64,000 nt of DNA, taken from NCBI GenBank assembly GCA_900696645.1, contig CAADGV010000004.1:97140-161139 (forward strand), given 5' to 3'. Of this stretch, positions 1-9,714 are shown piece by piece (position 1 is the stretch's first letter; each line of letters starts with the position of its first letter). The translations under genes and the position numbers were made by a program. Source of the DNA: an uncultured Chlorobiota bacterium (lineage in GTDB: Bacteria; Bacteroidota; Ignavibacteria; UBA10030; UBA6906). Below the pieces are notes generated by a model. That model worked only from the letters and a program-made list of their open reading frames with translations, had not been told where the DNA came from and made no database searches.

Positions 1-833
1 CCGGATTCCACATGCTTAAAGCCCATCGCCTTTCCTCGTGTCCTGTACATCGCAAACTCATTGAGAGTCACGAAGCGGTCAACCGGAAGATGTTGTTTTG
101 TCGGCTGCAGGTATTGCCCGATTGTCATGATGTCGCAGCCCCATGAATGCAAATCCGACATCACCTGAAGAACTTCATCGGCAGTTTCGCCAAGTCCCAC
201 CATAATGCCGCTCTTCGTCACCATTCCTGCTTCCTTCGACCATTTGATTACTTGAAGCGACCGTTCATACTTCGCTTGAGGGCGAACCTTTCTGTACAGT
301 CGCGGAACCGTTTCGGTATTATGATTGAGAATGTCGGGCTTCCCGGCAAGTACAATATCGAGCGCCCATTTCTCTCCCTGAAAATCAGGAATCAGCACTT
401 CAATCGTGATTTCGGGATTGACAGCTCGCGCTTGCCGGATTGTTTCTGCAAAAATCTCCGCGCCACCATCGGAGAGTTCATCACGATTGACTGAAGTGAT
501 GACAGCGTGCTTGACGCCCATAATGCGGATCGCATCAGCAACACGGGCAGGTTCATCCTTGTCCAGCCACGTTGGCCGACCCGTCTTCACATTACAGAAC
601 CCGCACGAACGTGTACACACGTCTCCCAAAATCATAAAGGTAGCGGTTCCTGCGTTCCAACATTCCGACATGTTTGGACAGCGGGCTTCTTCGCACACCG
701 TGTGAAGATTGTGGCCAGTAATCAGATTCTTGAGACGTGCGTATTCCTCGCCGGAAGGAATCTTGATCTTCAACCAATCCGGACGTGAGGGCCGTTGCTG
801 CTGTTCCTGTGCCGGTATTTCTTGAATGATCAT
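1..833 (-). CDS. lipA: Lipoyl synthase (3' end outside window)
   Basis: Radical SAM enzyme that inserts two sulfurs into octanoyl groups on lipoyl domains, such as that of the E2 encoded just upstream. Reading the minus strand from the ATG at 833 gives about 277 residues with no stop before the window edge. The auxiliary cluster motif C-x4-C-x5-C (CEEARCPNMSEC) precedes the radical SAM motif CTRSCGFC, both diagnostic of LipA. The last visible residues (MGFKHVES) match the family C-terminal region, so only a few dozen residues are missing. The ATG lies 2 nt after the E2 stop codon, so the two genes are probably cotranscribed and coupled. It therefore supplies the cofactor for the complex encoded beside it. 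Confidence 0.95.
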   Translation of the reverse strand, partial: MIIQEIPAQEQQQRPSRPDWLKIKIPSGEEYARLKNLITGHNLHTVCEEARCPNMSECWNAGTATFMILGDVCTRSCGFCNVKTGRPTWLDKDEPARVADAIRIMGVKHAVITSVNRDELSDGGAEIFAETIRQARAVNPEITIEVLIPDFQGEKWALDIVLAGKPDILNHNTETVPRLYRKVRPQAKYERSLQVIKWSKEAGMVTKSGIMVGLGETADEVLQVMSDLHSWGCDIMTIGQYLQPTKQHLPVDRFVTLNEFAMYRTRGKAMGFKHVES

Positions 834-835
834 AT

Positions 836-2155
836 TCAGAATGAAAGACTCGTGTCGAAATTCTCCAACCCCTTCACAATCTCTTCGAGAAACATCCCTC
901 CGAGCGCCCCATCAACGATACGATGGTCGAAGGATAGCGTGAAGAACGCCATCGAGCGAATCGCAATCATATCATCAACAACCATCACACGTTTCTTGAT
1001 GGCGCCTGTTCCGAGAATCGCCACTTGCGGCTGGCTGATGATCGGTGTGCCGATGAGTGTTCCGAACACTCCGAAGTTGGAGATTGTGAATGTGCCGCCT
1101 TGAATATCGTCGGGTGTCAGCTTCTTGTTGCGAGTGCGTGTAGCAAGATCGTTGACGGCGCGGGCAAAACCGAGAAAATTCTTCTCTTCGGCATTCTTGA
1201 TGACGGGAACGATCAGTCCGTTCTCAGCCGCAACAGCGAGGCCGAGATTGATGAAGTTCTTCTTGATAATCTTATCCCCTTCAATCGACGTGTTGACGAG
1301 AGGATACTTTTTCAATGCATTCACTACCGCCTGCACAATGTACGGAGTGTATGTGAGCTTGAAGCCTTCCTTTGTCTCAAATGAGGCCGCGTGGGCTGCA
1401 CGATGTTTCACAACCTCCGTCATATCCACTTCGTGAATGGCAGCGACATGCGGAGAGGTATGCACACTCTTGACCATGTGCTCCGCCATTTTCTGCAGAA
1501 CATTACTCATCTGAATAATGTCGTGTTGCGGAGCCGGATACTTAGCCCGCAGTTCAGGCACATCAACTGTCTTGCCTGCAATCGCCATTGACGGTGCGGT
1601 GGGCGCTGTCTTTGCAGAAGTGGGCTTCGGCGTTGTGAGCGCGCCGCTTTTTTTTGCATTAACGTAAGTAAGAATATCTTTCTTTGAGACACGTCCTCCG
1701 TCGCCCGTACCCGGGATCAACTCCAATTCCTGCATCGCAATTCCTTCTTCACGCGCAATGTTCAACACGAGCGGAGAATAAAATCTTCCCGATGCTGGCG
1801 CTGACAGGGTCTGAGCGGCTGGTGCAGCAGCAACTGCAGGCGCGGGTGTTGACGCAACAGCTTGTGGTGCAGGAGCAGCGGGCTTCGGTTCTTCCGTAAC
1901 AGCAACCGCTCCGCCTTCTGTATCAAGAAACGCAATCACCGTTCTCACCGGAACTGTGGTTTGTTCCTGGACAACGATTTCCGTAAGCGTTCCTGATGCC
2001 GGCGAGGGAATTTCGGAATCCACTTTGTCGGTGGAGATTTCCAAAATCGTCTCGTCTTTCTTCACTTTGTCGCCGACCTTCTTGTGCCATTTCACAATGG
2101 TACCTTCGGCGATGCTCTCGCCCATCTGGGGCATGACGACTTCTACACGTGCCAT
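836..2155 (-). CDS. 2-oxoacid dehydrogenase E2 acyltransferase
   Basis: Core dihydrolipoamide acyltransferase of a pyruvate/branched-chain 2-oxoacid dehydrogenase complex, 439 residues. One N-terminal lipoyl domain (about 1-78) has its lipoylated Lys at K44 in TDKVD. An Ala/Pro linker follows (about 84-123), then an E3-binding domain (about 125-165) and the catalytic domain (about 210-439) with the active-site motif DHRIVDG (H411, D415). The ATG at 2155 has AAAGGAAGT upstream. The first 13 codons and a few upstream bases are duplicated perfectly at 3207-3247, on the far side of the TIR gene. This is the only E2 in the locus, so it probably serves both E1 types. The choice between pyruvate and branched-chain substrates cannot be made from the sequence alone. 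Confidence 0.93.
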   Translation of the reverse strand: MARVEVVMPQMGESIAEGTIVKWHKKVGDKVKKDETILEISTDKVDSEIPSPASGTLTEIVVQEQTTVPVRTVIAFLDTEGGAVAVTEEPKPAAPAPQAVASTPAPAVAAAPAAQTLSAPASGRFYSPLVLNIAREEGIAMQELELIPGTGDGGRVSKKDILTYVNAKKSGALTTPKPTSAKTAPTAPSMAIAGKTVDVPELRAKYPAPQHDIIQMSNVLQKMAEHMVKSVHTSPHVAAIHEVDMTEVVKHRAAHAASFETKEGFKLTYTPYIVQAVVNALKKYPLVNTSIEGDKIIKKNFINLGLAVAAENGLIVPVIKNAEEKNFLGFARAVNDLATRTRNKKLTPDDIQGGTFTISNFGVFGTLIGTPIISQPQVAILGTGAIKKRVMVVDDMIAIRSMAFFTLSFDHRIVDGALGGMFLEEIVKGLENFDTSLSF

Positions 2156-2156
2156 A
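2116..2156 (-). repeat. 41-bp direct repeat, copy A (E2 5' end)
   Basis: A 41-bp stretch covering the start of the E2 gene, from just before the ATG through codon 13. It is identical base for base to 3207-3247. Sequence on both sides diverges, although a GAAT..AAGGAA ribosome-binding region upstream is still recognisably similar in the two copies. The two copies bracket about 1.05 kb that contains only the TIR gene. Confidence 0.95.
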
Positions 2157-2253
2157 GTTACTTCCTTTTATTCTTTTCCTTTTACTACTTGTATCCGATT
2201 CTCTCGTTTCCGCCGCGTGCGGCATATTTCCCTTCCGCCTACGTCGGCACCCT

Positions 2254-3162
2254 TTAGGGTTTCTTGTCGTGGCCCGGCTCTTCTGTCGGAGAGGGATTTA
2301 GCACTTGCGCACCAACCGTAACGGTTACCGCATCAGATGCGCTTCCAGTAGTGTTGCTACAAATAATATTGTAAGTGGCGGTATGAGTTAAGTTTCCAGT
2401 GGAGAAAGATCCGGACAGGGCACGACTGCCAGTCCAACCATTCGATCCACCGTAGCTAGAACAGGAAATGGCATTGCTGGATGACCAGCGAATGGTCGTA
2501 ACTCCATTATAAGGAACATAAGCATTGTCTGCAAAGATTTTGACAGACGGCTTTACACCTTCATCTTGGATAGACATTTTGTGAATAATCCACACCACCA
2601 CGAACACAGTCATACTCGCGAGCACAATAATCGTCAACACAAGTAGAACATTCTTCCAAGAAAATTCTTTTGACTGGCCGGGCAGCAGCCCAACTTCTGG
2701 TACAACAATGCGAGGCGGCTGCTCAGTCCGGAGCGCCATCTTAATCTGGTTGCATATCTCGAAGAGCGCTTTATCCTGTTGCCATTTTTCCATGCTCTCG
2801 AGCGGATTTTGCGGATCATGTGTTGCCTGATAATCAGTTAGCTCGGTTTCATCGAACATGCAATAGGAAATCGGGACCCAAATAATTTTCAGCCCTCGAC
2901 TTTCAGCGGCTTTGAGTAATTGCGGAATCTCTTGGGCAGTGACAAACTCCGACGCAAGAAAATTCTGGCTCACGAGCATCACTGCAATATCGGCTTTGTT
3001 GAGCTCCTTTTCGATTTCCTCTTTCCATTTCGCCCCAACGTGAATCTTAGTATCATCCCACGCGGAGATGAGATTATTGCGCAGAAGCGGCTTCAGCGTC
3101 TTTTGAAGGCGCTCAAGCCATTCCTTGTCTTGATGACAATAGCTGATGAACACATTAGGCAT
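2254..3162 (-). CDS. TIR domain protein with TM helix and exported Ig-like domain
   Basis: A 302-residue protein. Residues 1-145 form a bacterial TIR domain (FISYCHQD at the start, then SQNFLASEFVTAQE). E78 sits where NADase-type TIR domains carry the catalytic Glu, so NAD+ cleavage is plausible but unproven. Residues 171-194 are a strong transmembrane helix. Residues about 205-284 form a Cys- and Ser-rich Ig/PKD-like domain (GWTGSRALSGSFSTGNLT) expected outside the membrane. A sensing ectodomain joined to a cytoplasmic TIR effector suggests signalling or defence, which is inference. The gene interrupts the E1 beta-E2 gene order and appears more AT-rich than its neighbours. Its ATG lies 24 nt after the stop of a 19-codon remnant of the E2 start, with no good Shine-Dalgarno sequence of its own. 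Confidence 0.85.
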   Translation of the reverse strand: MPNVFISYCHQDKEWLERLQKTLKPLLRNNLISAWDDTKIHVGAKWKEEIEKELNKADIAVMLVSQNFLASEFVTAQEIPQLLKAAESRGLKIIWVPISYCMFDETELTDYQATHDPQNPLESMEKWQQDKALFEICNQIKMALRTEQPPRIVVPEVGLLPGQSKEFSWKNVLLVLTIIVLASMTVFVVVWIIHKMSIQDEGVKPSVKIFADNAYVPYNGVTTIRWSSSNAISCSSYGGSNGWTGSRALSGSFSTGNLTHTATYNIICSNTTGSASDAVTVTVGAQVLNPSPTEEPGHDKKP

Positions 3163-3186
3163 CGCGCACCGTTTGCACTATACGAA

Positions 3187-3246
3187 TCAGTTTTCTCTCT
3201 CGAAGTTCTCGCCCATCTGGGGCATGACGACTTCTACACGTGCCAT
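3187..3246 (-). pseudogene. Captured 5' fragment of E2 gene (19-codon ORF)
   Basis: An ATG with AAGGAATG upstream opens an ORF reading MARVEVVMPQMGENFEREN and then TGA. The first 13 residues are exactly those of the E2 protein; the rest are unrelated. It sits where the E2 start would be expected after E1 beta, and it ends 24 nt before the TIR start. It is either the original E2 start severed by insertion or a copy carried by the inserted DNA. It may act as a leader that brings ribosomes to the TIR start. Confidence 0.75.
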
Positions 3247-3247
3247 A
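3207..3247 (-). repeat. 41-bp direct repeat, copy B
   Basis: Perfect copy of 2116-2156, in the same orientation, located downstream of E1 beta and upstream of the TIR gene. Together the two copies look like the junctions of an insertion that recreated the E2 5' end. No integrase or transposase gene lies between them. Confidence 0.95.
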
Positions 3248-3280
3248 ATAACATTCCTTGATTCACATGATTTTTCAACA

Positions 3281-3339
3281 CGAAGACGCAAAGGCACACA
3301 AAGGTTCACGAAGGGAAACTTCGAGTCTTAGCGTCTTCG
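3281..3339. repeat. Intergenic palindromic element after E1 beta
   Basis: Arms CGAAGACGC (3281-3289) and GCGTCTTCG (3331-3339) are perfect inverse complements. The interior carries CACAAAGG-type repeats. It lies between the E1 beta stop (3351) and the captured E2 start, and could form an mRNA hairpin. Its composition resembles the palindrome at 38024-38095. Confidence 0.6.
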
Positions 3340-3350
3340 CGGTTTTCTTT

Positions 3351-4328
3351 CTAAAAATTTGCCAACTCTCTCAAAACCGTTACTACCTTCTGTGTATTCG
3401 GCAAAACAAAATCCTCCAGCGTCGGCGCAAACGGAACCGGAACATCCAACGCACCCAACCGCTTGATCGGTGCGTCGAGATATTGGAACACATTATCTGC
3501 AATCAGTGCAGCAACCTCAGCGCCGATTCCACCGGTCACGTTGTCCTCATGAACAATCAACACTTTGCCGGTCGCTTTCACGGCTGCGAAGATTGCCTCC
3601 TTGTCAAGCGGGGCGAGCGTTCGCAAATCCAATACCATCACATCAATACCATCCTCTTTGGCGAGAGTTTCGGCGGCCTCAAGTGATTGATGCACAGTAG
3701 AACCATATGTAATGATGGCAATGTCGCTGCCATTGCGTTTCACATCTGCTTTGCCAATCTCAACGATATGATCGCCTTCGGGAACTTCTCCTTTGATGCG
3801 GCGGTAGAGATACTTCGACTCCAGATAAAGCACGGGATTATTGTCCCGCACGGCCGCCTTCATCAGTCCTTTTGCATCAGCAGGAGTTGACGGCGCAACG
3901 ATTTTCAGTCCGGGGAAATGATGAAACCACGCCTCCGTGCTTGACGAATGATACGGCCCGCCGCGTATGTAACCGCCGTTCGGCAGACGAATCACCATCG
4001 GTGCAGGAAGATTCCAGCGATAGTGAATCTTCGCGCAGTTGGTGATAATTTGATTGAAGCCGCACGAGACGAAATCTGCAAATTGAATCTCAACAATCGG
4101 TCGCATGCCAACAACTGCCGCACCCGCCGCAGCGCCGATGATTGCGGCCTCCGAAAGAACGGAATCAATCACCCGTTCTTCGCCAAAATGCTTTTGAAAT
4201 CCCTTCGTTGCCTTGAACGCGCCGCCGTAGGCCCCAATGTCCTCGCCAATCAGGAAGACGGACTCGTCACGTTCCATCTCCTCCCACATGCCTCTGGAGA
4301 GGGCTTCGATGTAGGTCAGGGTTGGCAT
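3351..4328 (-). CDS. 2-oxoacid dehydrogenase E1 component, beta subunit
   Basis: Beta subunit of the thiamine-diphosphate-dependent E1 decarboxylase, 325 residues, pairing with the alpha subunit at 5071. It has the family N-terminus (TYIEALSRGMWEEM), the FLIGEDIGAYGGAFKAT segment and the C-terminal transketolase domain (VLIVHEDNVTGGIGAEVA). The frame stays open upstream to 4430, but that part overlaps the toxin gene. The ATG at 4328 is chosen because it begins the conserved domain and follows the toxin stop by one base (TGA-G-ATG). Expression may therefore be coupled to the toxin gene. In uninterrupted operons it would follow E1 alpha directly. Confidence 0.93.
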   Translation of the reverse strand: MPTLTYIEALSRGMWEEMERDESVFLIGEDIGAYGGAFKATKGFQKHFGEERVIDSVLSEAAIIGAAAGAAVVGMRPIVEIQFADFVSCGFNQIITNCAKIHYRWNLPAPMVIRLPNGGYIRGGPYHSSSTEAWFHHFPGLKIVAPSTPADAKGLMKAAVRDNNPVLYLESKYLYRRIKGEVPEGDHIVEIGKADVKRNGSDIAIITYGSTVHQSLEAAETLAKEDGIDVMVLDLRTLAPLDKEAIFAAVKATGKVLIVHEDNVTGGIGAEVAALIADNVFQYLDAPIKRLGALDVPVPFAPTLEDFVLPNTQKVVTVLRELANF

Positions 4329-4329
4329 C

Positions 4330-4656
4330 TCATTTAATGATTGCTCTGAAAATGCTTCTGAACTTGCGAAGTTCCGATTTCGATAGTCTTCCAAGTGAGG
4401 TAATAACCGTGCTTTGTCGAAGCGTTGCAATCCGATCCACCTTCACGACTGATGGGACACGAAGTCCATTCGCCCGAGTTGGCTTAAGTATGAATTCGTT
4501 CTCGGATAACCTCGTTTCGATCACTGAACTCACCGCGCATACAATCACATCGTGATAACGATCCTGTGTGAGTCCAACGACAACAGCAGGACGTACTTTC
4601 CGCACCGGCACATCCGCGAACGGAAACGGGACTATGATGATGTCACCAGTCTTCAA
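4330..4656 (-). CDS. MazF/PemK-type endoribonuclease toxin
   Basis: A 108-residue type II toxin of the CcdB/PemK fold. The N-terminus GDIIIVPFPF followed by KVRPAVVV is the family signature, and the C-terminal half matches the usual SVVKVDRIATL block. Members cleave mRNA at short motifs; the target here is unknown. The start codon is TTG, overlapping the antitoxin stop by 4 nt (TTGA), so translation is probably coupled. The gene ends one base before the E1 beta ATG. It lies inside a central metabolic operon, between the two subunits of one enzyme. Confidence 0.88.
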   Translation of the reverse strand: MKTGDIIIVPFPFADVPVRKVRPAVVVGLTQDRYHDVIVCAVSSVIETRLSENEFILKPTRANGLRVPSVVKVDRIATLRQSTVITSLGRLSKSELRKFRSIFRAIIK

Positions 4657-4865
4657 GACTTTCTTGCCAAAAGGTCCTGATAAATGTCCTCGCGTTCATC
4701 ATTCCAGAAAGAGAATGCCTCACTCTGGGATGTGAACGTCCGCATATCCTCATCGTCCTCGATTTCTTCCAAGAATGTGATGACGACTCTGTACTTCTTT
4801 TTCCCGGGAAGTTTTTCGAGTAAGCGAACGCGTTCGCCATCATAAATTCCTCTTACCGAAAGCAT
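4653..4865 (-). CDS. Antitoxin partner of the MazF-type toxin
   Basis: A 70-residue acidic protein (MLSVRGIYDGE..., ending FSFWNDEREDIYQDLLARKS) of a kind often seen just before PemK/MazF toxins. The frame is open to 4898, but the ATG at 4865 is chosen because AAAGGAGG (4871-4878 on the minus strand) lies 5 nt upstream, one of the best Shine-Dalgarno sites in the window. The N-terminal half resembles a short beta-rich DNA-binding region and the acidic C-terminus probably binds the toxin. Both statements are inference by analogy with other antitoxins. The strong initiation site against the coupled TTG of the toxin would favour an excess of antitoxin. Confidence 0.78.
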   Translation of the reverse strand: MLSVRGIYDGERVRLLEKLPGKKKYRVVITFLEEIEDDEDMRTFTSQSEAFSFWNDEREDIYQDLLARKS

Positions 4866-5070
4866 GATCGCCTCCTTTACTATATTCGATTTTGCCATTT
4901 CCTAATTATCCCCCGCATCTGGCTCTTTGTTAGCCTTCTCTCACTGCCCATTTCAACTTGACGCTCAAGATTGGGATAGCCGGATGCATGTAAGTGTCAG
5001 AATTCAGCGTCAGTATCCAATTACGAAATTTGATTCTTCTGCACTGAAAAGCAACACTCACATTGCCACA

Positions 5071-6027
5071 TCACTCCGCAAACACCCCCTCCACCGCCTG
5101 CTCTCCCGGCGGATACGGTTGCGCCACCGCATAGTCAACCGCCTCCTGAATCTCCGCAAGAATCTTCTCTTGCATTTCTTTCTTGAGTGAATCGGAGAGG
5201 ACGCTGGCTGACTTCAATTTCTTCTCATACAACTCAACGGGATCTTTCTTCCTCCATTCTTCGACCATCCCTTTCGGAACGTATGACGCGTCGTCGGAAA
5301 GCGAGTGACCGTGCATCCGCATCGTTACCGTCTCGATAAGGGTCGGGCCTTCACCCTTGCGCGCCCGTTCAACAGCTTGCTGGCACGTTGCGTACACAAG
5401 TTCGACATCTGTGCCGTCAATCGTGAAGCCGGGAATTCCGTACCCGACTGCACGGTCAGAAAGTTTCTTCGCCGCAAACTGTTTGTGATTGGGGGTGGAA
5501 TACGCAAACTGATTATTCTCGATGATCATGATGAACGGAAGTTTCATCACCGAGGCCATATTCATCCCGTCATGAAACTCGCCGAGGTTGCAGCCGCCGT
5601 CGCCGATGTAGTTGATCACAACAGCGTTTTCCTTTCGCATCTTCGACGCAAGCGCAACACCGCACGCCATCGGGATCATTGCGGCAAGGTGGCTCACGTT
5701 GCCGTAGATTCTTCTCGACGGATCGGCATAATGTCCAGTGCCGTCACGACCACGAGCAAGCCCCTCTCCTCTTCCAAGTTGCATCAGGAAGATGTTGCGT
5801 AACGTTTGTCCCTTCACAAGATGCGCCCCCAAATCACGATGCATCGGAAAGAGGTAATCCTGCTCTTCAAGCGCGAACGCGCTGCCGACCGCCGTCGCCT
5901 CGTTTCCGTATCCGGTGAACGCGCCGCCGACCATCTTCCCCTGTTTGTAGAGTTTGATGATGGCGTTGTCTACTTCGCGGGAGAGAAGAAGATAGCGGTA
6001 GAGGCGTATTCTGTTTTCAGCATTCAT
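5071..6027 (-). CDS. 2-oxoacid dehydrogenase E1 component, alpha subunit
   Basis: Alpha subunit of the split E1, about 318 residues. The thiamine-diphosphate motif GDGG (142-145) through ENN (170-172) has the usual spacing, and the phosphorylation-loop-like segment TMRMHGHSLSDD is present. The frame extends 8 codons upstream to a TTG at 6051; the ATG at 6027 fits the family start better. A gap of 205 nt then separates it from the antitoxin gene, which holds no recognisable gene and may contain the toxin-antitoxin promoter. Together with the beta subunit at 3351 it would decarboxylate pyruvate or a related 2-oxoacid and acylate E2. Confidence 0.92.
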   Translation of the reverse strand: MNAENRIRLYRYLLLSREVDNAIIKLYKQGKMVGGAFTGYGNEATAVGSAFALEEQDYLFPMHRDLGAHLVKGQTLRNIFLMQLGRGEGLARGRDGTGHYADPSRRIYGNVSHLAAMIPMACGVALASKMRKENAVVINYIGDGGCNLGEFHDGMNMASVMKLPFIMIIENNQFAYSTPNHKQFAAKKLSDRAVGYGIPGFTIDGTDVELVYATCQQAVERARKGEGPTLIETVTMRMHGHSLSDDASYVPKGMVEEWRKKDPVELYEKKLKSASVLSDSLKKEMQEKILAEIQEAVDYAVAQPYPPGEQAVEGVFAE

Positions 6028-6050
6028 TGCGAAGTAAGCTCCGAATCGCA

Positions 6051-6170
6051 ATTTCCAAGCTCCAAGGAAATTTCAAAATCAAAATTCCAAATAATCCTCC
6101 TCCCGGAAAATTGAATTTTGGCATTTGGAGCTTCTTTGGATTCTTAGAGCTTGAATATTGGAGTTTCAAA
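6051..6170. repeat. Imperfect inverted repeat in E1-E1 spacer
   Basis: The 145-nt spacer between the fused E1 and E1 alpha is AT-rich and folds on itself. AAGCTCCAA (6057-6065) pairs with TTGGAGCTT (6125-6133), and flanking segments (CAAAATTCC, GAATTTTGG) extend the pairing imperfectly. No gene is visible. It may be a small mobile-type palindrome or an mRNA hairpin that modulates E1 alpha expression. Confidence 0.5.
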
Positions 6171-6171
6171 T

Positions 6172-8283
6172 CTAGTACTTAACTAACTCTTCCAGCGCCT
6201 TCACAATATCCGCCTCTTGCGGCAGCATTGCGTTTTCCAGTTCGGGTCCGTACGGGACGGGAGAATCCTTCGCCGCAACACGCTGAATCGGTGCATCAAG
6301 TCGCTCAAAAGCTTCGTTCGCGATGATGGCGGCAATCTCGGCACCGAAGCCGCTCGTAAGCGTGTCCTCGTGAACAATGAGAACCTTGCCGGTCTTTCGA
6401 ACCGAATTCAGGATCGTTTCTTTGTCAAGAGGAATGAGGGTTCTCAAGTCAATTACTTCAACACTTGCGCCTGTCTTTTCCTGAATCTTGTTCGCCGCAT
6501 CGAGTGAACGCTGCACCAACATCCCCCACGTGATAATTGTGATATCGTCGCCAGCACGTTTCACTTTTGCAAGGCCGAACGGAATCAGGTAATCCGCATC
6601 GGGTTCCGGCGATGATGCAAACCCTTGACGATACAGCCCTTTATGCTCACAGAAAATGACAGGATTATCTTCACGACATGCTGTCTTCAGCAATCCTTTC
6701 GCATCTGCAGCGTTTGATGGGAACACAACGTGGACTCCGGGAATGTGTGTGAAGAATCCGTCAATGGATTGGCTGTGATATAACCCGCCATGAATGTAGC
6801 CACCCACAGCAACGCGAATCACCATCGGGCATGCCCACTCGTTATAGGAACGGAAACGCAACATCGCCACTTCGTCGCGAATTTGCATGAACGCCGGCCA
6901 GATGTAGTCGCCGAACTGGATTTCAACAACGGGCTTGAAATCGCCACGAATCGCCAGGCCGAACGCCGTGCCGACAATGCTTGCCTCGGCCAGCGGAGAG
7001 TTGAAGACGCGATCCTCGCCAAACTTCGCCGTCAGTCCTTTTGTGGCCGTGAAGACACCGCCTTTGTTCCCTGCAACATCCTCTCCGTAAATCACCATCT
7101 TAGGATTGAATGCGAGTTCCTCTGCGAGAGCGTGGTTGATGGCGTCGACCAACACAATCTTGTTGCCTTTGTGCTCAGGTTCTGTAAAGCCGTCTTTCGG
7201 AACGACGACGCGGGGCGAGTACACGTACTTCTCCAAATCGTTCACGTCGGGGAGCGGTTGTTCTTCTGCCGATTCTGCTGCCTTGTCAATTCGTTCCTGA
7301 ATTTCCTTTTTGATTCGTTCGAAATCCGAATCCTTCAGAATCTTCATCTCCGCCAACAATTTCTCGAACCTCGGAATCGGGTCTTTCTTGCGATCTTCCT
7401 CCAACTCCTCGTTGCTCCGGTATTTCTTCTGATCGTCTGATGAAGAATGGGCAAGAAGGCGGACCGTGTCGGCCTCAATGACGCTGGGGCCTTGCCCGTT
7501 GCGCGCCTTCGAAACTGCGTCTGCAGCGACTTCATACATCTCTTTGAAATCGCATCCGTCGACGCGATAGCGGTTCAGTCCTTTGTATCCGGCAACCAGG
7601 CCGTACACGGATTCGCCCGCCATCTGATCCTTTATAGGGACTGAGATGGCAAACTTGTTATTCTGAATGAGAAAGATAACAGGGAACTTCCCCCGTGCAG
7701 CCCAGTTCACCGCTTCGTGAAACTCACCCTGACTCGTGGTCCCTTCGCCTGATGAAACGTAAACGACTTCATCCTTTCCATCTTTTACGGCACCCATCGC
7801 TGTTCCAACTGCTTCGAGAAATTGCGTGCCTGTCGGCGATGATTGCGCAATGATACGTTGCTTCTTGTGTCCGTAGTGGAACGGCATGGCAAAACCATTG
7901 CTGCTCGGCCCGCCTTTGCGGTGCAGCGCCTCAAGCATAATCTCTTCGATCGTGTAACCAAACTGCAACGAGAACGCAAGATCGCGATAGTACGGATACG
8001 CCCAGTCATAACCGGGCTTCATTGCAAGCGCCGTCGCCGTCTGCGCAACCTCATGCCCCGATCCGCCGATGTGGAAGAATACTTTGCCCTGCTTCAGCAA
8101 AACAAGAATTTTGTTGTCAAGCAAACGCGCAGCAACACAGTTCTTGTACGTGTTGGTAAGTTGGTCGTTTGTCAAGCTCGCCAGCGCGTTGCCCGCGACA
8201 ACTGCCGGACGGGAGCCGTTTGAGCCCTTGGGCGTTGTTTCAGTCTTAACATTCTTGATGGTTGACACGAATCGCTTCCTCAC
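6172..8283 (-). CDS. Fused 2-oxoacid dehydrogenase E1 alpha-beta subunit
   Basis: A 703-residue fusion. Residues about 35-350 are an E1 alpha domain and residues about 375-700 an E1 beta domain, as in the fused branched-chain-type E1 enzymes common in Bacteroidota. The thiamine-diphosphate motif is present as GEG (179-181) instead of GDG, followed by QNN (207-209) at the normal spacing. The Asp-to-Glu change is seen in this subgroup and should still allow Mg2+ binding. The start is uncertain: GTG at 8283 gives the longest form, while a second GTG at 8268 has GAGGAAG upstream. It follows lpdA by 33 nt. Having both a fused and a split E1 in one operon suggests two substrate specificities feeding one E2/E3 core. 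Confidence 0.92.
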   Translation of the reverse strand: MRKRFVSTIKNVKTETTPKGSNGSRPAVVAGNALASLTNDQLTNTYKNCVAARLLDNKILVLLKQGKVFFHIGGSGHEVAQTATALAMKPGYDWAYPYYRDLAFSLQFGYTIEEIMLEALHRKGGPSSNGFAMPFHYGHKKQRIIAQSSPTGTQFLEAVGTAMGAVKDGKDEVVYVSSGEGTTSQGEFHEAVNWAARGKFPVIFLIQNNKFAISVPIKDQMAGESVYGLVAGYKGLNRYRVDGCDFKEMYEVAADAVSKARNGQGPSVIEADTVRLLAHSSSDDQKKYRSNEELEEDRKKDPIPRFEKLLAEMKILKDSDFERIKKEIQERIDKAAESAEEQPLPDVNDLEKYVYSPRVVVPKDGFTEPEHKGNKIVLVDAINHALAEELAFNPKMVIYGEDVAGNKGGVFTATKGLTAKFGEDRVFNSPLAEASIVGTAFGLAIRGDFKPVVEIQFGDYIWPAFMQIRDEVAMLRFRSYNEWACPMVIRVAVGGYIHGGLYHSQSIDGFFTHIPGVHVVFPSNAADAKGLLKTACREDNPVIFCEHKGLYRQGFASSPEPDADYLIPFGLAKVKRAGDDITIITWGMLVQRSLDAANKIQEKTGASVEVIDLRTLIPLDKETILNSVRKTGKVLIVHEDTLTSGFGAEIAAIIANEAFERLDAPIQRVAAKDSPVPYGPELENAMLPQEADIVKALEELVKY

Positions 8284-8316
8284 ATTTGAATATTAGGATT
8301 CTCTTCCGAACGGCAT

Positions 8317-9714
8317 TCAGATATTAATCGCTTCCCCATACGCCGCCGCCGCCGCTTCCATCACGGCTTCGCTCAACGTCGGATGGGCATGAATGGTATG
8401 GAAGATGGATTTTCCTGTTGCTTCGAGCTTCTTTGCAAGCGCCAGCTCCGCAATCATCTCGGTGGCTTCGCTGCCCATGATGTGTGCGCCGAGAAGCTCG
8501 CCGTATTTCGCGTCGAAAATCAGCTTCACCATTCCTTCTGTCTCGCCGATGGCAATTGCCTTGCCGAGCGGGCGGAACGGAAATTTGCCAATCTTCACTT
8601 CGTAGCCCTCGGCCCTTGCCTTTTCTTCAGTCATGCCGACGCTCGCGATTTGCGGTTGACAATAGGTACAACCGGGAATCGCTGAGTAATCAATCGGCTC
8701 GGGGTTCATTCCCTTGATTGCTTCCACGCAGTGAATGCCCTCCGCACTCGCAACATGCGCAAGCCACGGCGCGCCGATCACATCGCCGACGGCGTACACG
8801 CCGGGCACGTTTGTGCGGTAGTGTTGATCGACTTTGATGTGATTGCGTTCAACAGCAACGCCGACTTTTTCCAACCCAAATCCCTCAACGTTGCCCTGCA
8901 CGCCGATAGCCATCAACGCAACATCTCCCTTCAACTCTTTCTTCCCTTCCGGAGTGTTCACCACAACTGTTACGTCGGTGGGAGAATTCTTCACGCTTTC
9001 GACTTTGGTGTCGGTCAGGATTTCGATGCCCTGTTTTTTGAAACTCCGCTCCATCTCCTTCGTCAATTCTCGATCTTCAATCGGAAGAATGCCGGGCATC
9101 ATCTCAACAACGGTGACTTTTGTGCCGAGGGCATTGTAGAAGTAGGCAAACTCAATCCCGATGGCTCCGGCGCCGACCACGATCATGCTTCCCGGCTGCT
9201 CGCTGAGCGACATCGCTTCGGTACTCGTGATGATGCGTTTGCGGTCGATTGTCACGCCGGGAATCGAGCGGGCACGGGCTCCAGTCGCCACGATGATATG
9301 CCTTGAACTGACCTTGAATGCCGCCCCTTCTTTGGGCTTCACCTGAATTCCGCTGCTGCCTGCCAACGTTCCGTACCCGGACATGTAATCAATCTTGTTC
9401 TTCTTCATCAAGAACTCAACGCCTTTGGAGATTTTGTCCGAGATGCCGCGGCTGCGCTGGATGATCTTCCCGAAATCAAACTTCAAATTGTCATACGAAA
9501 TCCCCCACTCGCTCGCCTTCTTGAACTGATGAAGAATCTCTGCATTCTTCAACAACGCTTTCGTGGGAATACATCCCCAGTTGAGGCAGATGCCGCCGAG
9601 TTTCTCTGCCTCAATAATGCCGGTGTTGAATCCGAGTTGCGCGGCACGAATTGCCGCCGTGTACCCGCCGGGTCCTCCTCCTAGAACAACAACATCAAAT
9701 GATTTTTCTGCCAT
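8317..9714 (-). CDS. lpdA: Dihydrolipoyl dehydrogenase (E3)
   Basis: Flavoprotein disulfide reductase that reoxidises dihydrolipoyl E2 with NAD+, 465 residues. It has the N-terminal FAD motif GGGPGG (12-17), the redox-active CLNWGC pair (C43, C48), a central NAD-binding motif (GAGAIGIEFA) and the C-terminal dimerisation domain with HAHPTLSE (H444, E449 as catalytic His-Glu). The ATG at 9714 has AGAGGAACTT upstream. It is the first gene of the minus-strand operon, ahead of the E1 genes. A palindrome and a terminator-like hairpin lie in its leader. Confidence 0.96.
   Translation of the reverse strand: MAEKSFDVVVLGGGPGGYTAAIRAAQLGFNTGIIEAEKLGGICLNWGCIPTKALLKNAEILHQFKKASEWGISYDNLKFDFGKIIQRSRGISDKISKGVEFLMKKNKIDYMSGYGTLAGSSGIQVKPKEGAAFKVSSRHIIVATGARARSIPGVTIDRKRIITSTEAMSLSEQPGSMIVVGAGAIGIEFAYFYNALGTKVTVVEMMPGILPIEDRELTKEMERSFKKQGIEILTDTKVESVKNSPTDVTVVVNTPEGKKELKGDVALMAIGVQGNVEGFGLEKVGVAVERNHIKVDQHYRTNVPGVYAVGDVIGAPWLAHVASAEGIHCVEAIKGMNPEPIDYSAIPGCTYCQPQIASVGMTEEKARAEGYEVKIGKFPFRPLGKAIAIGETEGMVKLIFDAKYGELLGAHIMGSEATEMIAELALAKKLEATGKSIFHTIHAHPTLSEAVMEAAAAAYGEAINI

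Follow-up and report, generated by a model that had tools for sequence, protein, structure and literature searches.

A single TIR gene inserted at the start of the E2 gene, with duplication of that gene start, in two Ignavibacteria genomes

The window analysed here is a stretch of 64,000 nucleotides from an uncultured bacterium of the Ignavibacteria, in the Bacteroidota (source genome G000), which was compared with two congeners (G001 and G002) and with more distant relatives. Near its beginning it carries a pyruvate dehydrogenase (PDH) operon on the minus strand, in the order E1 alpha (5071-6051), a MazF-like pair (4330-4898) placed in the gap between E1 alpha and E1 beta, E1 beta (3351-4328), an upstream copy of the E2 start, a TIR gene, E2, and lipA, the last named from its sequence. 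Both neighbours of the TIR region are intact: E1 beta matches Pfam Transket_pyr and Transketolase_C and keeps the same order in relatives, and E2, the dihydrolipoamide acyltransferase (836-2155), matches 2-oxoacid_dh, Biotin_lipoyl and E3_binding. Comparison within the window shows that positions 2116-2156 and 3207-3247 form a direct repeat identical at 41 of 41 bp, each copy consisting on the minus strand of a T, the ATG and the first 13 codons of E2. The downstream copy is the working start of E2, and the upstream one is a displaced 5' fragment, separated from E1 beta by a spacer (3248-3350). Between the copies lie, all read on the minus strand, a linker from the upstream core to the TIR start codon that forms the left end of the cassette (3163-3206), the TIR gene (2254-3162), which is the sole credible gene there, and a noncoding tail that forms the right end and contains the E2 ribosome-binding site AAAGGA (2157-2253).

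By simple expectation, an exact 41-bp repeat within 3 kb would not arise by chance. The core is present in two copies in total in the 4.2-Mb genome, a 23-mer search with up to 3 mismatches having found no third one there, and neither the linker nor the tail recurs in the 1.79 Mb of the genome that was searched; with cassette ends in single copy and a core in two, a repetitive element was rejected as the cause. No inverted repeat pairing the ends of the insert was found, and the insert holds the TIR gene with no mobile-element or recombinase gene beside it. A preliminary description made from the window alone had proposed a lone TIR gene bracketed by a perfect repeat of the E2 start and devoid of a recombinase of its own, and all of this was borne out. 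The spacer next to E1 beta contains a repetitive palindrome (about 3275-3345) with approximately 10 related sequences, whole or fragmentary, in the 1.79 Mb searched, and other palindrome-like sequences, unrelated to that of the window, occupy the same position in G001 and G002.

The TIR gene encodes a protein of 302 amino acids that matches Pfam TIR_2 (1.6e-15) and the PADLOC profile for ThsB-type TIR proteins (2.3e-19). It has one strong transmembrane segment at about residues 167-198, and the approximately 95 residues C-terminal of this segment are probably located outside the cytoplasm. Residue E78 aligns with a glutamate of solved bacterial TIR structures, the glutamate being kept, at what we take to be the catalytic position of TIR NADases. 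The TIR-TM-Ig architecture first suggested for the protein is thus confirmed for its TIR and transmembrane parts, while the C-terminal part matches no Pfam family and gave no convincing match to any solved structure; judging by its pattern, the Ig label is a reasonable reading. Between G000 and G001 the TIR part has a dN/dS ratio of 0.25 and the whole protein one of 0.38, and the gene is therefore under constraint. An AlphaFold model built from 3 sequences was set aside (pLDDT 41). With its TIR domain and catalytic-type glutamate the predicted protein resembles ThsB-type and other bacterial TIR NADases, from which it differs in being membrane-anchored, in its extra C-terminal domain and in having no adjoining partner gene: the ThsA effector of Thoeris is absent from the locus, where the flanking genes are E1 beta and E2. 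It is likely to be an NADase that is anchored in the membrane and has a sensor facing outward, and the lone gene probably acts in defence or as an NAD-cleaving receptor.

Comparison with relatives provides both the empty and the filled state of the site. In G002 the junction of E1 beta and E2 has a single E2 start and no TIR gene, and the more distant relatives with a readable junction likewise have one E2 start and lack the gene. G001, whose E2 is 86% identical, carries the TIR gene at the same site; upstream of the gene lies a duplicate of the G001 E2 start, which matches the working start at 93% over 45 bp. The junction of core and cassette aligns base for base and without gaps between G000 and G001, and in G001 the homology to E2 runs about 5 bp past the 41-bp core (GAGAGCATC), which puts the original duplication at about 45 bp. 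Since an independent genome has the identical structure, an assembly artefact was rejected. The claim that an insertion had recreated the E2 start is therefore upheld, with exact one-core sites in relatives lacking the TIR gene, and the only other carrier at this site also has the repeat.

The distribution of the cassette is narrow. Among 98 genomes of the order and a sample of 395 of the phylum, only G000 and G001 encode full-length relatives of the TIR protein, and no other copy of the core, beside other cargo or alone, and no other full-length cassette was found in the genome, the order or the phylum sample. G002 does encode a TIR homologue (54% over the TIR domain), which is located elsewhere, has a different C-terminus and has no repeated gene ends around it. 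Across about 110 E2 loci, no short duplication of the E2 start around cargo was seen beyond G000 and G001, nor was a second cassette or a larger element using this repeat; one candidate (L060) was rejected as its spacing is that of a lipoyl-domain duplication. The cassette had no match in viral contigs or phages, and matches in plasmids were almost all to the TIR domain only. A unit mobilised through a recombination core, as the preliminary description envisaged, is thus not established.

The boundaries of the cassette are visible in the identity between G000 and G001, which is 36% in the spacer, meaning unrelated sequence, 89% in the linker (3163-3200, without indels), 83% in the TIR gene and 79% in the noncoding tail as far as the ATG of E2. 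Homology stops at the left edge, where the spacer gives way to the linker, and the profile as a whole indicates that the cassette includes the tail with the E2 ribosome-binding site, and that each host has its own sequence ahead of the upstream core. On this pattern the leader of E2 would have been replaced by that of the cassette: the tail would now provide the E2 start, and the original leader, together with the displaced first codons, would precede and serve the TIR gene.

The history of the cassette differs from that of its flanks. Divergence at fourfold sites between G000 and G001 is 0.26 in the TIR gene (25 of 96 sites) versus 0.52 in lipA, E2, E1 beta and E1 alpha pooled (Fisher p=1.8e-6). 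Across 104 genes of the genome pS has a median of 0.39, with the TIR gene (about 0.30-0.31) at the 10th percentile; the divergence of the cassette is thus ordinary for the genome, and the operon is the more divergent part. Given this, the cassette has a different history from its flanks, yet by this measure alone it does not clearly postdate the separation of the species. The idea that it is far more recent than the species lost support, as it is the operon that departs most from the median. The 45 bp of the core were compared between both copies of each carrier genome (G000 and G001) and the one start of G002. Not one of the 45 positions unites the two upstream copies, and at positions 9 and 21, and less cleanly at 27, both G000 copies agree with each other against all others, so that two to three positions group the copies by genome. 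Taken together, core grouping and divergence imply that the cassette was exchanged or re-inserted after the flanks had diverged, or that the copies were homogenised. We prefer insertion or exchange after divergence of the operon alleles to conversion combined with an odd operon history. The PDH-lipA operon as a whole (window 1-9714; G000:C4 97-107 kb) has a pS to G001 of 0.54-0.63, approximately 1.5 times the median of 0.39, and its allele was possibly exchanged with another lineage.

We modestly favor an origin in which the cassette was inserted with duplication of the E2 start and was moved or maintained by general recombination, with no dedicated recombinase. Entry could have occurred by break repair or by integration of a circle (Campbell-type) at short homology, recombination between the repeats would allow precise loss, and homologous recombination could homogenise or exchange the copies. 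Mobility of the cassette is plausible, because its divergence is discordant with that of the flanks and because a second probable cassette with a duplicated gene end exists in the genome (see below). As it is present in two genomes only and always at one site, movement itself was not seen.

The nearest competitor, which we consider a real possibility though short of even, is a single insertion before G000 and G001 split, followed by vertical inheritance, with conversion from E2 overwriting the upstream copy of G000 and the cassette remaining a fixed, non-mobile member of the operon. The two genomes share site and junction, and a cassette at the 10th percentile of genome divergence (pS 0.30, inside the genome range) also fits descent from the common ancestor of the species; on that view it is the operon, with a pS of about 0.6, that would stand out, and the identity of the copies would be accounted for by gene conversion. 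Against this stand the two-fold gap in synonymous divergence between the cassette and both flanks (p about 2e-6), the need for a conversion limited to about 41 bp, and the lack of any core position that retains a shared, upstream-specific state.

Whatever its origin, the repeat might have been retained because selection favors it as a leader that initiates translation of the TIR gene, a tentative proposal that is compatible with the insertion and general recombination favored above. The upstream copy opens an ORF of 19 codons, made up of the duplicated E2 start and 6 cassette codons (3246-3187, minus strand; MARVEVVMPQMGENFEREN-stop), which is followed by 24 nt and the TIR ATG. In G001 the corresponding ORF (MARAEVVMPQMGESIKRED-stop) has the same length, stop and 24-nt spacing without indels. 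The leader ORF lies in the frame of the TIR gene with TGA and TAG between them, and is therefore not fused to it. A good ribosome-binding site precedes the leader in G000 and E2 in both species, and the match before the TIR gene is weak. The leader probably feeds ribosomes to the TIR gene by termination and re-initiation downstream. Less favorable to selection are the use of Shine-Dalgarno sequences in the genome, which is only modestly above background, and the RNA structure of the leader, in which nothing unusual was found (z 0.66); moreover, selection on translation leaves the identity at silent sites unexplained.

Elements that integrate at gene ends and restore the gene suggest another route, in which the cassette is a recombinase-less integrative element and the E2 start is the att core of a tyrosine recombinase encoded elsewhere. 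Cis-mobilizable elements carry cargo between direct repeats, have no recombination genes and keep the att sites of known ICEs; the cassette resembles them in its repeats and its lack of such genes, unlike them in that no ICE or IME using the E2-start core was found. Cores at gene ends that rebuild the gene are typical of integrative elements; SXT, for example, targets the 5' end of prfC and encodes an integrase for this purpose (PMC10866021). Like SXT, the cassette targets a gene end and rebuilds the gene with a new leader, but SXT measures about 100 kb and encodes a tyrosine recombinase, and the TIR cassette is about 1 kb with none found. We regard this route as improbable, since no recombinase was found in the cassette, the core is absent elsewhere in the genome, and the about 110 E2 loci examined hold no larger element or second cassette with the repeat. 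Least likely of all, and quite doubtful, is that the E2 5' end was tandemly duplicated first and the TIR gene landed or was trapped between the copies: two-lipoyl-domain E2 genes arising from tandem 5' duplication do occur in several Ignavibacteria (L009, L052, L057, L059, L064, L065, L068, L070, L071), but these duplications span approximately 110 codons with no start codon before the second copy (L009), whereas at the E2/TIR locus about 45 bp are duplicated from the ATG onward and the tail brings its own ribosome-binding site.

The closest parallel is an insertion mode with long target duplication. Its primary descriptions, for restriction-modification (RM) genes, are reportedly those of Nobusato et al. 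2000 and Furuta et al. 2010. Three articles present the mode for Helicobacter RM genes, with a duplication "in the order of 100 bp" (PMC1643837, PMC3031569, PMC3874152). As in the RM units, a defence-type unit without a recombinase and unlinked to known mobile elements is flanked by a long direct target duplication, recognised through comparison of related genomes. With 41 exact bp in G000 and about 45 bp in G001, the duplication of the E2 start falls within the range of tens to about 100 bp, one-copy empty sites exist in G002 and other relatives, and mobile-element genes and terminal inverted repeats are absent. The cargo is TIR rather than RM, being a single TIR-TM gene here and a HEPN-MNT pair in the second case below, the host belongs to the Ignavibacteria and not to Helicobacter, and the duplicated gene start has become a leader ORF. 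The cassette would work like a long-target-duplication insertion with a new cargo. The preliminary view of the arrangement as new was too strong in the light of the published work on RM genes (PMC3874152, PMC1643837); compared with the published Helicobacter cases, what is added is a new cargo, a new phylum and a gene start as target. The movement of single defence genes without carriers is largely unexplained, and the locus shows the states before and after insertion, with their exact junctions, in sister species. It extends the mode from RM genes to a gene resembling a TIR receptor and, probably, to a HEPN-MNT pair. A duplicated gene end beside one or two cargo genes is also a signature that can be searched in all genomes.

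The gap between E1 alpha and E1 beta is a separate hotspot of small cargo, which differs between relatives (window 4330-4898; L042 9351-10460; L043 9959-10590; L045 1600-2135): a MazF-like pair in G000 and G011, a response regulator with a RAMA-type protein in G001, and an HNH protein with a small partner ORF in G002. No repeats were found around this cargo. Minimal mobile elements of Neisseria are alternative small cargoes between conserved genes, swapped by homologous recombination in the flanks, a description that the gap matches. Target duplication is not part of their definition, which sets the TIR cassette apart from them. The term itself occurs in PMC1538595.

A scan for short direct repeats 0.2-10 kb apart, covering 1.79 Mb of the 4.2-Mb genome, found few two-copy repeats at gene ends. 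One of them, 97 bp long and 92% identical, duplicates the 3' end of glgA, a gene named from its sequence, and surrounds a HEPN-MNT pair (L171, G000:C5, 255-1261; Pfam HEPN 6.7e-12, nucleotidyltransferase 9e-12), and glgA of G001 lacks the pair. This toxin-antitoxin pair is a probable second target-duplicating cassette in the genome; it sits at a contig end, and the flank past its displaced copy is unmatched in G001. No other two-copy gene-end repeat around a single cargo was recognised in the 1.79 Mb. It is conceivable that cassettes free of any recombinase carry individual defence or toxin-antitoxin genes through this genus and copy a host gene end as they insert, with the TIR gene inserted or exchanged separately at the E2 start in two species and the HEPN-MNT pair at the end of glgA. 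If true, defence genes would have a general, minimal way of moving that rebuilds the host gene and leaves a duplicated end to serve as a leader and as a handle for precise loss. Two further candidates were rejected as similar cases: a 100-bp repeat in G001 (C5), which involves no gene-start duplication, and repeats in an RND operon (C22), which are tandem duplications that include the cargo. Between its repeated AraC-type and propeller genes, this RND efflux cluster (L224, G000:C22, 589-12185) retains gene remnants, namely an AcrA-type 3' end and 5' starts of the AcrB type.
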